Positions 6,349 to 50,982 of a stretch of DNA of 64,000 bases are shown here, in pieces. Below the pieces are notes generated by a model, which searched no databases, had not been told where the DNA came from, and saw nothing but the letters and a program-made list of their open reading frames with translations. A program made the position numbers and the translations under genes. Origin of the DNA: Verrucomicrobiaceae bacterium (GTDB lineage Bacteria > Verrucomicrobiota > Verrucomicrobiia > Verrucomicrobiales > Verrucomicrobiaceae); the NCBI GenBank assembly GCA_947458455.1, contig CANGYJ010000002.1:186001-250000 (forward strand), in the 5' to 3' direction. Numbering within the stretch: the first letter of the stretch is position 1; each line of letters starts with the position of its first letter.

Positions 6349-7069
6349 GGCGGGATATTACATCAAAGCCCCGCCAGATGTCGAGAGCGGATTCAGCCAG
6401 GGCAGAAATCAGGCGAGCCAAGCGCCTTGGTTTGGAGAAGGTTTTCGTGGCCACCGACAGGATGCGTGGGCTGGTAGCCGTCCGAGCCGGAGGCTCGCCA
6501 GAAGGTCGCCGGTGGTGAAGATGGCGCAGCCATCGGGAACCACCGGAGTCGAGGACATCGCCTCCCATGACCACCACGCGCTGGAGGGAGCGCGAGAAGC
6601 ATTCCGCCTAAATTTAGAAAGGAGGAACCACGGAATACACAGAATACACGGAAAGATCAGGCCCAGATCTGATCATGCTCTCACAGCTTTTGGATGAGTG
6701 TGGTGAAGTGGACGCATCTCTTCGTTTTCCGTGTATTCAGTGTATTCCGTGGCCGGCCATTCCCGTTTCTGGGTTCGATGGCTGTGTGGCCTTCGTCCCC
6801 TTCTCGCGCCCTTCCAGGGCGCAGCGGAGGATGAATGGGGTGTCGGCGTGGTTCCGGTGGTTTCGCTTCGCGACTTCGTAGCACCACCGACTCATTTCTT
6901 GCGAGCCTCCGGCTCGGCAGGATCACGCCTCCCTCAACGGCACCTCATCAAACCGCTCTTCATGCGATCTGCAGTGCGAGTTTAGATTCTGAAGTCGGAC
7001 GGCGAGGAGGCGCATGAGGGAGTGGTGGGCTAAACGAGCCTATCGATTTTGAGTCTGCACGGCCCATGA
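6349..7069. other. 720-bp gene-free interval with nested inverted repeats
   Basis: I see no convincing gene. The interval holds an outer inverted repeat (17 bp, CCGAGCCGGAGGCTCGC at 6482-6498 and its exact complement at 6901-6917). Inside it lies an ACGGAATACAC-type inverted repeat (6628-6752). Short reading frames here are low-complexity and repeat-derived. Confidence 0.6.
6628..6752. repeat. ACGGAATACAC-type inverted repeat, copy 1
   Basis: The left arm 6628-6654 begins CCACGGAATACACAGAATAC. The right arm 6725-6752 is its reverse complement with one mismatch, separated by about 70 bp of unrelated sequence. Full copies recur at 10172-10276 and 26388-26511, and a half copy at 27738. Confidence 0.85.
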
Positions 7070-10127: not shown

Positions 10128-10171
10128 GCGGCGGAGACGTGTGGACTTTCACCCTGGCCGGGAATGGTTGA

Positions 10172-10276
10172 CCACGGAATACACAGAATACACGGAAGTA
10201 AGAATGAGGGTTTCGATAGCAGCTCCGTGGGGCATGTGCCGCTTTTTCTGTTCCGTGTATTCTGTGTATTCCGTGG
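10172..10276. repeat. ACGGAATACAC-type inverted repeat, copy 2
   Basis: The 26-bp arms at 10172-10197 and 10251-10276 are exact reverse complements (starting CCACGGAATACACAGAATAC), with about 53 bp between them. It lies between the convergent UbiA-like gene and the DUF1287 gene, where a hairpin could end both transcripts. Confidence 0.9.
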
Positions 10277-10282
10277 TTCCTC

Positions 10283-12462: not shown

Positions 12463-12684
12463 TGGAGTGATGGAGTGGTGGAGTGGTGGAGTGATGGAGT
12501 GGTGGAGTGGTGGAGTGGTGGAGTGGTGGAGTGGTGGAGTGGTGGAGTGGTGGAGTGGTGGAGTGATGGAGTGGTGGAGTGGTGGAGTGGTGGAGTGGTG
12601 GAGTGGTGGAGTGGTGGAGTGGTGGAGTGGTGGGGTGATGCCGAAGTCTCAACACTCCAGCACTCCGATTCTCCACCACTCCAT
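12463..12684. repeat. 9-bp minisatellite with inverted partial copy
   Basis: About 19 tandem copies of the 9-mer GGAGTGGTG (with GGAGTGATG variants) run from about 12463 to 12634. A reverse-oriented stretch follows at 12650-12684 (AACACTCCAGCACTCC and CCACCACTCC). It fills most of the 330-bp gap between the divergent peptidase and esterase genes. Units of the same family occur at 25837, 34470 and 57629. It is not a CRISPR: the units are 9 bp with no spacers. Confidence 0.9.
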
Positions 12685-12734
12685 CTCCTCCGACGCCGAA
12701 ACTTCCCGCGCCCGCCGCCGTTTGAAGCGCTCGC

Positions 12735-26357: not shown

Positions 26358-26387
26358 GGCAGTTAGCCTAGAAACGGAAATGGCTGA

Positions 26388-26511
26388 CCACGGAATTCAC
26401 TGAATACACGGAAATGAAGGGCAGTGCTCAATTCGCCAGAGTCATCCACAAGGTGAGCGAACAAGATATGACCCATGCCTGATCCTTCCGTGTATTTCGT
26501 GTTTTCCGTGG
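26388..26511. repeat. ACGGAATACAC-type inverted repeat, copy 3
   Basis: Left arm 26388-26413 (CCACGGAATTCACTGAATAC onwards) and right arm 26486-26511 (TTCCGTGTATTTCGTGTTTT onwards). The arms are slightly diverged from copies 1 and 2. It lies between the convergent DUF420 and GT4 genes. Confidence 0.8.
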
Positions 26512-26533
26512 TTCCTCATTTCTGAGTTTAGGG

Positions 26534-34469: not shown

Positions 34470-34548
34470 GGAGTGATGGAGTCTTGGAGTGCTGGAGTGG
34501 TGATGGCTTTGGATCAACGGCCCATCACTCCCCGACTCCATCACTCCG
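34470..34548. repeat. 9-bp-unit inverted repeat
   Basis: Left part GGAGTGATGGAGTCTTGGAG (34470 onwards) with further GGAGT units; right part CCATCACTCCCCGACTCCAT (34521 onwards). It fills the gap between the aldolase and SDR genes and could form a long hairpin in the mRNA. Confidence 0.75.
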
Positions 34549-39830: not shown

Positions 39831-41534
39831 TCACTTGGCTTTCTTCTTCGGCTGCCCTTCACGGCGGTGCTCCTCTCCCCAGTCGTTGCGGGCTTCGCCG
39901 ATCCATTCATCGACGAAGCTGCTGGCGGCCCAGTCTTCCCACTGGCGGATGAGGTGCTGGCTGAGGGCGGGGAATTTGCCGATGATGTCCTGCTGCTCGG
40001 TGCGGTCGTCGTCGATGTGGTAGAGTTCCCACGGGCCTTTGAATTTCTTCACGAGCTTCCACGGGCCGGTGCGCAGCGCACGATTGCCCTCGTGCATCCA
40101 GAAGATCGGCTTCACGCGATGCAGCGGCTCGCCGTGGATCGCAGGCATGAGCGAGAGGCCTTCCGCTGGCAGGATCTTGTGCCCTTTGAATTCGGCGGGA
40201 TAGACGACACCAGTCACGTCGCAAGCGGTGGCCATGATGTCGATGAGATGCGCAGGCTGGTGCTCTAGCCTGCCCTTTCGGGCCGCTGGGATGCCGGCGG
40301 GCCAATGTGCGATGAGGGGCGAGCTGATGCCGCCTTCGTGCGTGAAGTGTTTATACCGGCGGAAGGGCGTGTTGTTCAGCGTGGCCCAGGTCATGCCGAG
40401 AAAGACATGGCTGTCCGGGCCGCCGAGCACCTCACCCTGCGTGATGCCACGCGGACCGCCCTCGGCATTGCCACCGTTGTCGCTCATGAAAAAGATCAGC
40501 GTGTTGTCGAACAGGCCGCGTTCTTTTAATCCCGCGATCATGCGACCAACGCTTTGATCCACGCAGTCGAGCATGGCGGCGTAGATGGCCATGAGGTGAT
40601 CGTAGCGGTCTTTGTCCTCCTCGCTGAGCGAATCCCACGCGGGCACATCCGCCGGACGCGGACTGAGTGGCCATTTGGCATCCACGATGCCGAGTTCGAT
40701 CTGCTTTTGGTGTCGCGCTTCGCGCAGCTTGTCCCAGCCGATTTTGTATTTGCCGCGATATTTCGCGATCACCTCCGCCGGAGCCTTCAGCGGGAAATGC
40801 GGTGCCCCATGGGCGAAGTATTGGAAGAAGGGCTTTCCGCTCGCTTTGGCATCATCGAGGAATTTCAGCGCCCAATCCGTGAACATGAAGGTGGAATACC
40901 ACTCGCCTTTGCCGACCTCCGGTGAATCGGCCGCGACCTTCCGTCCATCGAGGTAAACCCACTTGCAGGGATCTTTGCTGCGTTCTTTGGGGAAATACAG
41001 CTCGCCAAACTGCGTCGTCGCCGTGCGCTGAAAGCCACGCTCCCACGGCGGCGTGCCGTTAGGCTGCCCGAGATGCCATTTGCCGACGATGGACGTGTGA
41101 TAACCCGCCGAGCCGAGTACCTCCGCCATCGTCACGCAGCGGTCATCGAGCTTCGCGTGGGTGCCTTTGGACTCCGGCAGCTTCAAACCATCGAGATAAC
41201 CCATGCCGGCCTGGTGCGGATACAAACCGGTCATCAAAGCAGCCCGCGTGGTGCTGCACCGGGCGGTGTTGTAAAACTGCGTGAAGCGCACGCCGCCTGC
41301 TGCCAGCGCATCGAGATTCGGCGTGGGAATCTCTGAGCCGTAGCAGCCGAGATCACTGAAGCCCATGTCATCCACGAGGATGACGAGGATGTTGGGCCGC
41401 TCTGCGGCCAATGACGAATGCAGAGCCGAGCAAAGCGAGACAGCCAGCATCGCGAAGCGTATGCTGCCCCGCAGGGGTGAGCGAAGCGAAGCAATGACGA
41501 ATGACGAAACGAGGGCGAGCAGGAAGTGCTTCAT
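39831..41534 (-). CDS. secreted sulfatase with CSTTR site and enlarged signal peptide
   Basis: About 567 residues. Metal site VILVDDMGFSDLGCYG, then FYNTARCSTTRAALMTGLYP: the modifiable Cys93 is present, but the motif is CxTxR rather than CxPSR/CxASR. Further matches: VGKWHLGQP, FFQYFAHGAPHFPL and FMSDNGGNAEGG, the arylsulfatase A-like branch common in Planctomycetota and Verrucomicrobiota. The leader before AERPNIL is about 44 residues instead of 20, because a repeat-like segment (41410-41505) lies inside it. Start at 41534 (MKHFLLALVSS). Confidence 0.87.
   Translation of the reverse strand: MKHFLLALVSSFVIASLRSPLRGSIRFAMLAVSLCSALHSSLAAERPNILVILVDDMGFSDLGCYGSEIPTPNLDALAAGGVRFTQFYNTARCSTTRAALMTGLYPHQAGMGYLDGLKLPESKGTHAKLDDRCVTMAEVLGSAGYHTSIVGKWHLGQPNGTPPWERGFQRTATTQFGELYFPKERSKDPCKWVYLDGRKVAADSPEVGKGEWYSTFMFTDWALKFLDDAKASGKPFFQYFAHGAPHFPLKAPAEVIAKYRGKYKIGWDKLREARHQKQIELGIVDAKWPLSPRPADVPAWDSLSEEDKDRYDHLMAIYAAMLDCVDQSVGRMIAGLKERGLFDNTLIFFMSDNGGNAEGGPRGITQGEVLGGPDSHVFLGMTWATLNNTPFRRYKHFTHEGGISSPLIAHWPAGIPAARKGRLEHQPAHLIDIMATACDVTGVVYPAEFKGHKILPAEGLSLMPAIHGEPLHRVKPIFWMHEGNRALRTGPWKLVKKFKGPWELYHIDDDRTEQQDIIGKFPALSQHLIRQWEDWAASSFVDEWIGEARNDWGEEHRREGQPKKKAK
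41410..41505. repeat. repeat-like segment inside a sulfatase signal peptide
   Basis: The motif AATGACGAATG occurs directly at 41410 and again near 41493, enclosing GCGAAGCG-rich partial palindromes (around 41450-41490). It adds about 25 residues, including ASLRSPLRGSIRFAMLA, to the leader of the sulfatase at 39831-41534. Confidence 0.5.
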
Positions 41535-49161: not shown

Positions 49162-49779
49162 ATGTCCGCCGCCGCCCCTGCCGCGACTGATCCCGTCGAG
49201 CCACTCGACGTCGATCTCGTCAAACGGAGCCAGGCGGGAGACACGCGTGCGTTCGATCTGCTCGTCACACGCTACCGGTCGAGGATCTACGCCATGACTT
49301 ACCATCTCATCCAGAATGAAACCGAGGCCTGGGACCTCGCGCAGGAGGCCTTCATCAAGGCCTGGCGGGCCCTGCCGAATTTCAAGCTGGATGCCGCCTT
49401 CTACACCTGGCTCTACCGCATCGCCCACAACGTGACCTACGACTGGCTGCGGAAGAAAAAGATCCAGGGAGATGGCGAGTTCGATGACGAGCGCACCGAG
49501 CACCGTGCGATGCCCGGCTCCCGCACCGCGCCGCAGGGCTTTGACGCCCCGGATCGGGCCATGAAGCGCCAAGAACTCGGCTGCCGCATTCAGGACGCCA
49601 TCGCCCGCCTCTCGCCGGATCACCGCCAGGCGATCGTGCTCAGAGAAATCGAAGGTCTCTCGTATGAAGAGATCGCCGAGATGATGAAATGCTCGCTCGG
49701 CACCGTCATGTCCCGTCTTTTTTACGCCCGCAAGAAACTCCAGGAAATGCTCAAGGACACCTATGAAAACCCCGTCTGA
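49162..49779 (+). CDS. RNA polymerase ECF sigma factor (RpoE-like)
   Basis: 205 residues. Sigma region 2: RAFDLLVTRYRSRIYAMTYH, DLAQEAFIKAWRALPNFK and FYTWLYRIAHNVTYDWLRKK. Region 4: IQDAIARLSPDHRQAIVLRE, GLSYEEIAEMMKCSLGTVMS and RLFYARKKLQEML. Length and layout fit group ECF sigma-70 factors. Its 3' end overlaps the following membrane-anchored gene by 17 bp, the standard sigma/anti-sigma coupling. Confidence 0.92.
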   Translation: MSAAAPAATDPVEPLDVDLVKRSQAGDTRAFDLLVTRYRSRIYAMTYHLIQNETEAWDLAQEAFIKAWRALPNFKLDAAFYTWLYRIAHNVTYDWLRKKKIQGDGEFDDERTEHRAMPGSRTAPQGFDAPDRAMKRQELGCRIQDAIARLSPDHRQAIVLREIEGLSYEEIAEMMKCSLGTVMSRLFYARKKLQEMLKDTYENPV

Positions 49780-50407
49780 TGAAAACCACGATCTCATCCG
49801 CTGGCTCGACGGTGAAATGACCGCCGATGAACGCCGCACTTTTGAGGCCACCCTCCAAAACGACCCCGAGCTCGCCGCCGAGGCCGAATCCATGCGCCAA
49901 CTGAGCGAAAGTCTCAAGACGCACCTCCCCGCCGAGATGCCCGTGCCACACGCGGACTTCTTCAACTCGCAAATCCAGGTCCGCATCGCCCAGATGGACC
50001 TCGACGAGGCACGTGAACGCGAAAAGGCCGCCGCATCCACCGCTAGCTGGTTCTCCTGGCTGCGCATGCCTTGGCTGGCCGGAGCAGCCGCAGCCGCAGC
50101 CGCGTTTGCCATCGCGGGCCTTGTTTGGACGCAAAACAGCTCCAGCGGCACCAGCACCATCGCCAGTACCTACACGCCGAATCCCGCCGTTCACGCCCAG
50201 GTCTTCCACTCCTCCGATGCTCAGGCCACCGTCCTCATGCTCGATGGCCTAGAGCCCGTCCCTGCCGAGAAAAAGATCGTCGGCTTCCGCGTCCACCGCG
50301 CCGAATCCGATGCCGAATTGGCTACGACGACCCTCTTTGATGAAAACGGCGCTGTTTTGGCCGTCGTGGCGATGAATGCCAAAGGCCAACCGACCCTGCT
50401 CCAATGA
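49763..50407 (+). CDS. putative anti-sigma factor
   Basis: 214 residues. The N-terminal part resembles the zinc-less anti-sigma domain (HDLIRWLDGEMTADERRTFE, then LQNDPELAAEAESMRQLSES). One transmembrane helix at about 103-125 (WLAGAAAAAAAFAIAGLVWT) is followed by an outer domain. It would hold the ECF sigma factor at the membrane until cut; RseP at 28 kb is a possible protease. No HxxxCxxC zinc motif. The start overlaps the sigma gene by 17 bp. The stop overlaps the next ATG (ATGA). Confidence 0.78.
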   Translation: MKTPSDENHDLIRWLDGEMTADERRTFEATLQNDPELAAEAESMRQLSESLKTHLPAEMPVPHADFFNSQIQVRIAQMDLDEAREREKAAASTASWFSWLRMPWLAGAAAAAAAFAIAGLVWTQNSSSGTSTIASTYTPNPAVHAQVFHSSDAQATVLMLDGLEPVPAEKKIVGFRVHRAESDAELATTTLFDENGAVLAVVAMNAKGQPTLLQ

Positions 50408-50535
50408 TGAATGAGGAATTCAGAATGACGAAAGAATATCCAATTCCCAAGTCCGAAGTACATCCCCGCAAAGCGTGGCTTCGTGCCTGGTGCTTCCTCA
50501 TTCTTTCGTCCTTCCTCATTCTGAATTCATCATTC
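50403..50535. repeat. GAATTCAGAATGA-type inverted repeat forming a signal peptide
   Basis: Left arm from about 50403 to 50436 contains GAGGAATTCAGAATGACGAA. Right arm 50497-50535 contains TCATTCTGAATTCATCATTC. The arms are reverse complements with a small gap. Both arms are inside the coding sequence at 50404-50982. Confidence 0.8.
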
Positions 50536-50982
50536 TGCCCTGCTCAGCAGCCCGCTCCGGTTCCCGCCAAAAAACCCGCCACCGATGGCAAAGTCTGGGG
50601 TGCCCTCGTCTATGCCACGACGGATGCCGCCAAGCTCACTGGCAGCTCCGAAAAGGCACCGGAGAACCAAAAAGACCTCTTCGGCCGTCTCGGGAAGGTC
50701 TTCATGCCTTACACGCACTTTGAGATCATCGGCCAGCACGTCCAGGATGTGTTTCGCGAGTATGAATCGTGGGTCGTCCCCTCCCGCGATCTGTTTTTGA
50801 AGATCGACTCCAAAGGCCCCGCGCCAGATGGCGGCATGAATCTCCACCTCCAGGTCTGGCGTGAGCAGCAGGTGCTCGTCAAAACGGATGCCGTGCTGCA
50901 CCCCGGAAGCCCGCTCTTCATCGGCGGCCCGAAGTGGCGGGATGGTCAGCTCCTCTTCGTGCTCGATCTGGCGAAGAAGTAA
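50404..50982 (+). CDS. exported protein whose leader is built from an inverted repeat
   Basis: 192 residues, function unknown. The start codon (ATGATGAATG) and first residues MMNEEFRMTKE come from the left arm of a palindromic repeat. The hydrophobic core FLILSSFLILNSSFCPAQQP comes from the right arm. The mature part has ALVYATTDAAKLTGSS and a possible beta-rich domain (GMNLHLQVWREQQVLVKTDA). It overlaps the anti-sigma gene by 4 bp, so it is the third gene of the sigma operon. Whether the long leader is cleaved (AQQ) or the protein stays anchored is unclear. Confidence 0.65.
   Translation: MMNEEFRMTKEYPIPKSEVHPRKAWLRAWCFLILSSFLILNSSFCPAQQPAPVPAKKPATDGKVWGALVYATTDAAKLTGSSEKAPENQKDLFGRLGKVFMPYTHFEIIGQHVQDVFREYESWVVPSRDLFLKIDSKGPAPDGGMNLHLQVWREQQVLVKTDAVLHPGSPLFIGGPKWRDGQLLFVLDLAKK

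Follow-up and report, generated by a model that had tools for sequence, protein, structure and literature searches.

A dispersed palindromic element provides the start codon and predicted export signal of a gene in an ECF sigma/anti-sigma operon of a Verrucomicrobiaceae bacterium

In the Yersinia gene YPO1552, residues 1-30 of the predicted signal peptide, which has 41 residues in all, come from a MITE, and the signals of related proteins are unrelated (Delihas 2007, PMC2759123, PMC2229807); for YPO2495 and YE2643, too, MITE-containing signal peptides are predicted (PMC2759123, PMC2229807). Rickettsia palindromic elements (RPE) are palindromes of about 105-150 bp that lie in frame in many protein genes (PMC2229807, PMC10969869). 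REPs are dispersed palindromes of 20-40 bp, located mostly between genes and sometimes in ORFs; the survey that describes them also mentions CGTC repeats without a known transposase, and it found more REPs at the N-termini of ORFs than at their ends, many of them suspected of being extragenic (PMC3733652). In Schistosoma japonicum, many genes share a signal sequence, which has been explained by the duplication of a repeat-flanked source locus (PMC3434034). For all of these papers, our statements are limited to those parts of the text that were accessible.

We analyzed a stretch of 64,000 nucleotides from a Verrucomicrobiaceae bacterium (the window; positions are counted from its first base), in which an earlier note, made from the letters alone, had described an inverted repeat at the start of the third gene of an ECF sigma/anti-sigma operon. 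This operon assignment was borne out, clearly for the sigma factor gene (49162-49779, + strand; Pfam PF04542, E=1.4e-17, and PF08281, E=6.5e-18) and as probable for the anti-sigma gene (49763-50407, +), whose NCBIfam match (NF052375, E=7e-14) lies below the cut-off. Gene 3 (50404-50982, +) encodes a small protein of 192 aa with a leader from the element and a conserved mature part, for which Pfam, NCBIfam and PDB sequence searches gave no match; a structure model of the mature protein (pLDDT 82) found its best Foldseek match at E=0.029 and TM 0.27, which is not informative.

As delimited by the family model (R1), the complete palindromic element spans 50402-50536 and is a member of a dispersed family. 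A repeat search located both arms inside the 5' end of the gene 3 ORF, in agreement with the earlier note: a purine-rich left arm (50409-50435, +) and a pyrimidine-rich right arm (50509-50535, +) of 27 nt each, 89% complementary and separated by 73 nt. The note had placed the ATGA start on the left arm; the ATGA (50404-50407) does belong to the first bases of the element (50402-50408), just outside the strict 27-nt arm. Likewise, the right arm was said to encode a signal core ending right before AQQP, and it does code for the end of the hydrophobic core (SFLILNSSF), with C-P intervening between SSF and AQQP. The TGA stop of the anti-sigma gene (50405-50407, +) also falls inside the element, in ATGA overlap with the start of gene 3. 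RNA from 50385 to 50545 folded at -47.1 kcal/mol (z = -4.56), with none of 200 shuffles as stable, and no Rfam match was found at E<=1 in 50200-50800. Because both palindrome arms are present, a chance likeness of T-rich signal codons was ruled out for this gene.

Before position 50704, the open frame of gene 3 contains ATG, GTG or TTG codons only at 50404, 50407 and 50425 (50404-50427, +), all of them ATG and all in the element, within which the rarer ATT and CTG codons of this frame also lie. The next such codon after the element, at 50704, is residue 101, within the conserved domain. A true start past residue 55, which would have refuted the earlier note, was not supported, ATG, GTG and TTG being absent between residues 8 and 101.

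A Sec signal peptide consists of a start, a charged n-region and a hydrophobic core. The gene 3 leader follows this layout, as assessed without a trained predictor: RKAWLRAW precedes the core CFLILSSFLILNSSF (50491-50535, +, from the translation), with a maximum Kyte-Doolittle (KD) value of 2.3, and the best 12-residue mean of the arm, 2.3, compares with 1.4-2.8 for 14 native signal peptides. The c-region, CPA|QQ (50536-50550, +), lies 3' of the element and meets the small-residue criterion. Since CPA|QQP occupies the position of xA|QQP in three orthologues with ordinary leaders (L036-L038), the native site seems to have been retained; these three are also the basis for inferring cleavage after Ala47, and Sec-dependent export is likewise an inference.

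A 143-base query matched the bacterium's own genome (5.35 Mb, 28 contigs) at least 75 times at E<=10, with separate counts for the two strands of a palindrome and 40 of 90 candidates scored; a profile of 34 aligned copies returned at least 151 matches at E<=1. Merging the profile matches by hand and adding three further places gave at least 79 distinct elements, a lower bound because 150 of 1460 candidates were scored and the matches were not all listed. As the present copy is among the 34, its own E-values (5e-23, 2e-22) prove nothing; moreover, the automatic consensus structure gave no base pairs, so the family model is based on sequence only. In structure, the family is a palindrome, though an imperfect one, about 100-150 bp long; GAANNNN heptads make up the arms, which surround a variable centre (consensus AATGACGAATGA... 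for the left arm and ...TTCGTCATT for the right), and some copies retain a single arm. Scoring at most 15 candidates per genome, we detected it at E<=0.001 in at least 30 of 56 genomes, comprising at least 29 of the 35 of the genus, our own included, and at least 1 of 21 outside it; the named relatives are Verrucomicrobiaceae, some of them under the label Prosthecobacter. The repeat is thus dispersed, as the earlier note had it, with matches throughout its own genome and in genus relatives; within the window, an exact 13-mer search found only the two arms, and dispersal is not seen there.

The window contains other repeats. A sulfatase gene (39831-41510, -) has in its leader a probable remnant of the element (41492-41522, -; R1 E=0.022 only). 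This leader, near 41400-41510, reads MKHFLLALVSSFVIASLRSPLRGSIRFAMLAVSLCSALHSSLA|AERPN and seemingly joins the remnant to a second repeat-like stretch that, by eye, resembles stretches at four loci elsewhere (L108, L018, L137 and L006). Another type of inverted repeat, CCACGGAATACACAGAATACACGGAA with its complement, occurs at 6628-6752, 10171-10277 and 26367-26532, and 12469-12685 and 34470-34547 hold arrays of a further type, in which TGGAGTGG/TGGAGTGA units are accompanied by their inverted form, CACTCCA.

The build of the element makes it able to serve as a leader. On either strand, read 5' to 3', the purine arm comes first, ATG-rich and hydrophilic (MTNDE-like), and the pyrimidine arm second, rich in TTC, ATT and CTC and hydrophobic in the right frame; an in-frame copy of either orientation therefore offers a start, an n-region and an h-region. 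From this anatomy we infer that the palindrome renders the aptness of the arm independent of orientation, which explains why either one would do. Among right-arm readings of elements of at least 60 bp, 24 of 143 have a frame with maximum KD >=2 and the last 14 codons free of stops, as compared with 1 of 143 for the complementary reading, 4.8% of random 50-mers from the window and 18% of dinucleotide shuffles of the arms. Frames resembling signal peptides are thus no commoner than in shuffles of the same arms, indicating that the aptness resides in composition and ruling out the order of letters in the arm as the cause of its hydrophobicity.

We then considered element ends with a best frame score of at least 0.05 that face an ORF extending at least 60 codons beyond the element (72 of 75). 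A gene was counted as led when it had no in-frame ATG up to 95 nt past the element and its start lay in the element or at most 60 nt before it, which classified 17 of the 72 ends as led and 52 as not led, the remaining 3 being internal to genes. The gene frame was the most hydrophobic of the three frames of the arm in 15 of the 17 led cases, the exceptions being L118 and L144, and in 18 of the 52 others (Fisher p=1.2e-4). One of the 15 (L109, +) is spurious, lying on the antisense side of a sulfatase, and L144 is of unsure nature; without the spurious row, and with one sulfatase kept, this preference was still observed (12/14 versus 18/52, p=7.6e-4). Maximum KD reached 1.4, and hence the range of the 14 native signal peptides, in 13 of 17 led and 10 of 52 non-led ends, which include two (L104 and L114) that were read as led and excluded by the rule.

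For many REPs at ORF N-termini, it has been suggested that the repeat is extragenic and that translation begins downstream (PMC3733652, in its accessible part). Such a situation probably holds for most element-adjacent genes here, an in-frame ATG occurring within 40 nt in 37 of the 52 non-led ends, and the suspicion fits many, not all, of the copies; for gene 3, however, whose next possible start lies inside the conserved domain, we regard it as extremely improbable. This calls for caution in annotation, since N-termini contributed by repeats in genomes of this kind look genuine in one gene and extragenic in another. As a separate observation, the first ATG lies 2-40 nt past the pyrimidine arm in many genes, leaving little room for a Shine-Dalgarno sequence.

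In four sulfatases, the domain follows the leader directly, starting at residue 20 in one of them and at residue 22-24 in the other three; DUF7133 starts at residue 66 and a SnoaL/lumazine-binding-like domain at about 39. The domain lies further in for led or element-fronted genes with pectate lyase, DUF6288, PPC, ResB, PPIase, cytochrome c, PDZ, prepilin-type, CBM9 and outer membrane efflux protein assignments. Among the led genes are sulfatases, DUF7133, PPIase and others whose families are commonly exported. For the cytochrome c, the efflux protein and the prepilins, the element gives the start and n-region ahead of a native hydrophobic stretch, and so is not the whole signal in these genes. 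Export of the led proteins is a prediction and has not been shown, as no SignalP-type predictor, expression or proteome data were available.

Gene 3 had matches in 43 of the 56 genomes, two of them to the leader only (G015 and G027), which leaves the protein in 41. Thirty orthologue loci were read, of which two gave no frame, and leaders were assigned by eye throughout as of element or ordinary type. The element leader was present in 5 of 36 orthologues: our own, those of G016, G029 and G014, and L094, from a named uncultured Verrucomicrobiaceae record. On a tree of the 36 mature domains (support 77/94, rooted by midpoint only), the five element leaders need one change, and they formed a single group in 80% of 200 bootstrap trees. 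Leaders outside this group are mostly short and ordinary by eye, e.g. MKSTCILIFLTAALGCLKA|QQP, and four are longer, with no analysis beyond their length. Orthologues with the same leader and no palindrome would have refuted the earlier note; instead, the leaders outside the group are unrelated, and no palindrome unit was seen in them by eye. Its reading of a repeat domesticated as a targeting sequence is thus supported both by starts that lie only in the element and by the unrelated leaders of orthologues, with export predicted.

The preceding gene appears to have been affected as well. Anti-sigma proteins end in LLQ* (own), VLK* (L032), LLQ* (L033) and MLK* (L034) ahead of element leaders, and in ..PRG* in the four read ahead of ordinary leaders (L036, L037, L039 and L044); L094 and L038 remained unresolved and outside this comparison. 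Since these residues differ together with the leaders, the simplest reading is that the element altered one end of each of the two genes. Judging by sequence comparison alone, the older signal peptide of gene 3 would most simply have been replaced by the element. With the stop codon also in the element, an older signal apparently replaced and other genes affected, the domestication reading was, if anything, too modest.

The leaders differ widely in folding, with z of -5.2 for our own copy, -5.1 for L094, -3.2 for L032 and -2.3 for both L033 and L034, and from -2.5 to +1.1 in the other orthologues folded. Within the element-leader group the palindrome weakens, while Ser36, Ser43 and Phe44 are invariant. 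The earlier note had suggested that a hairpin in the mRNA could affect translational coupling, an idea that received little support, as two of the four relatives fold within the range of ordinary leaders.

Retention could be followed in a second gene led here, which encodes a PPC-domain protein (L113) with matches, not all orthologous, in 39 of 39 genus genomes. Seventeen leaders of this family were read by eye, 5 being short and ordinary and 12 of element type, some of them much decayed. Eleven could be aligned with few gaps, leaving out L171 and L169 (nested insert); all have an ATG and a maximum KD of 2.1-3.3. The row of L166 was out of register in the identity comparison, and the nine in-register leaders share 56-83% DNA identity with our own copy. 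Random mutants of the latter at those identities combined an open frame, an early start and equal hydrophobicity in 0.1-23% of cases, a comparison that is weak for the closest relatives and stronger for distant ones; selection as the cause of retention is an inference.

These data bear on two alternatives. In one, the element would act mainly as a 5' RNA hairpin regulating translation, for instance in coupling to the anti-sigma gene, and its hydrophobic reading would be a tolerated by-product. Consistent with this are the strong hairpin over the start codon, the z of -3.7 to -5.4 in 4 of 17 folded leaders of the L113 family and the finding that, at 8 of 20 predicted pairs in one leader family, one or more sequences are changed on both sides. 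However, the covariation term of that family was +0.12, giving no support for a selected RNA structure, and the core is still kept where folding is poor, in other L113-family leaders with z up to +1.7 and in the two gene 3 relatives at -2.3; together with the use of the most hydrophobic frame in nearly all led cases, this makes a primarily regulatory hairpin unlikely. Alternatively, the leader might be translated and idle, a neutral passenger on a protein that is not exported, and the in-frame copies in genes such as mnmG (see below) do show that proteins can accommodate the repeat. That gene 3 has orthologues with ordinary-looking signal peptides, three of them sharing the A|QQP site, and that all 11 aligned L113-family leaders, nine of them diverged as given above, are hydrophobic lead us to consider an idle leader very unlikely. 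We thus prefer a leader kept for export.

Other leaders are common to several species. In the L028 family, 20 leaders were read by eye: 7 are clearly of element type, 2 are ordinary, 7 could not be assigned, and in 4 (L180, L181, L188 and L190) the gene is led by a second palindrome, of GCGAAGG heptads (..ALCPSPFALRA|QDP). The L190 palindrome is itself dispersed: at E<=0.001, and with both strands counted, it matched G008 26 times, G011 14 times and our own genome 10 times. Element leaders or fronts shared by relatives and our own genome were also observed, among others, for a SnoaL-like protein, a protein with a weak histidine-kinase match, a cytochrome c and a sulfatase; most of these loci were picked because the leader had matched, and they are examples, not a count. 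The SnoaL-like protein is presumably a lipoprotein, if the lipobox rule holds.

Element copies also occur in frame inside mnmG, whose product matches GIDA at E=1e-77, and, as far as our own genome shows, inside a DUF7133 gene and a radical SAM/DUF4080 gene. In 20 mnmG orthologues compared by eye, one loop has 67-75 residues in 13, this element in 3 and another insert in 4. This loop of MnmG, a tRNA-modification enzyme, appears as a hotspot in which sister species carry different in-frame, repeat-like inserts (L194-L213). Between genes, the elements sit tightly: of 65 genes whose 3' end points at an element of at least 60 bp, 55 have a stop that falls between -18 and +10 nt relative to the first base of the element, and 16 use the TGA of its first AATGA. 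Perhaps stop codons, or overlapping ATGA sites, are preferred as targets.

In its build the element resembles a MITE, being short and multicopy (79 merged, 34 aligned), with terminal inverted repeats and no room for a transposase, and orthologous loci without it exist. No mobilizer was found at the 12 Y1_Tnp loci of our own genome: two of them (2.7-3.4 kb each) hold a single unit with 3 mismatches and the rest none. The RAYT-like genes were not convincingly flanked by copies, and a RAYT was rejected as the mobilizer on this ground; the element also measures about 100-150 bp, not the 20-40 bp of a REP.

Together, our results make it highly probable that an element copy sited at a gene boundary replaced the n- and h-regions of gene 3 and was then kept for export, the export itself being inferred. 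Under this scenario, a copy of an element nearly confined to one genus would have settled where the anti-sigma gene meets gene 3, in the common ancestor of a group of species, with insertion inferred as the way it arrived. It would have taken over the last residues of the anti-sigma protein along with the n- and h-regions of the gene 3 signal, leaving the native cleavage site in place, and export would then maintain the captured leader, even as its palindrome may decay. Signal peptides evolve quickly, and one can rarely see where new ones originate; here a source, a likely replacement and stages of decay can be read in sister species. In this bacterium, export signals appear to have arisen from the element repeatedly and to have been passed on by descent.

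More broadly, the palindromes of the genus might serve as a lasting reservoir of signal peptides: inserted at gene boundaries, in whichever orientation, they would bring a start, an n-region and a core and repeatedly swap old signals for new. We find the case for and against this proposal evenly balanced. It includes that the element often donates the stop of the preceding gene, and that sister species took up a second, different palindrome family at one and the same gene. If true, signal-peptide turnover would here be driven by selfish repeats.

Among the matches listed by our literature searches, from which most subscription journals and preprints were missing, we found no report of this repeat in Verrucomicrobiota, and within the same scope none of recurrent repeat-derived signal peptides in this phylum. 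As with the enterobacterial MITEs RU-2/YPAL and RU-1, a short palindromic repeat lies within a predicted signal peptide; in those cases few loci are involved and the repeat forms part of the signal, whereas here a different repeat, in Verrucomicrobiaceae, concerns more genes, and a frame test, a comparison of sister species and leaders common to several species are added. The copies in frame in mnmG, the radical SAM gene and the DUF7133 gene recall RPE, although RPE are described, in the accessible parts of those papers, as in-frame fusions in conserved genes and not as signal peptides. REPs are likewise dispersed palindromes, and the arms here contain CGTC near, not at, the end of the consensus (..TTCGTCATT); a remote relationship to the CGTC repeats may exist. 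REPs, however, are described as 20-40 bp, against about 100-150 bp and arms of heptads in this element. In S. japonicum, too, a dispersed stretch gives genes a common signal, in a eukaryote and, as far as the accessible text goes, with a repeat that is not itself the signal. The kind of event described here thus has precedents, and what is new is its scale, the evidence from reading frames and the record left in sister species.
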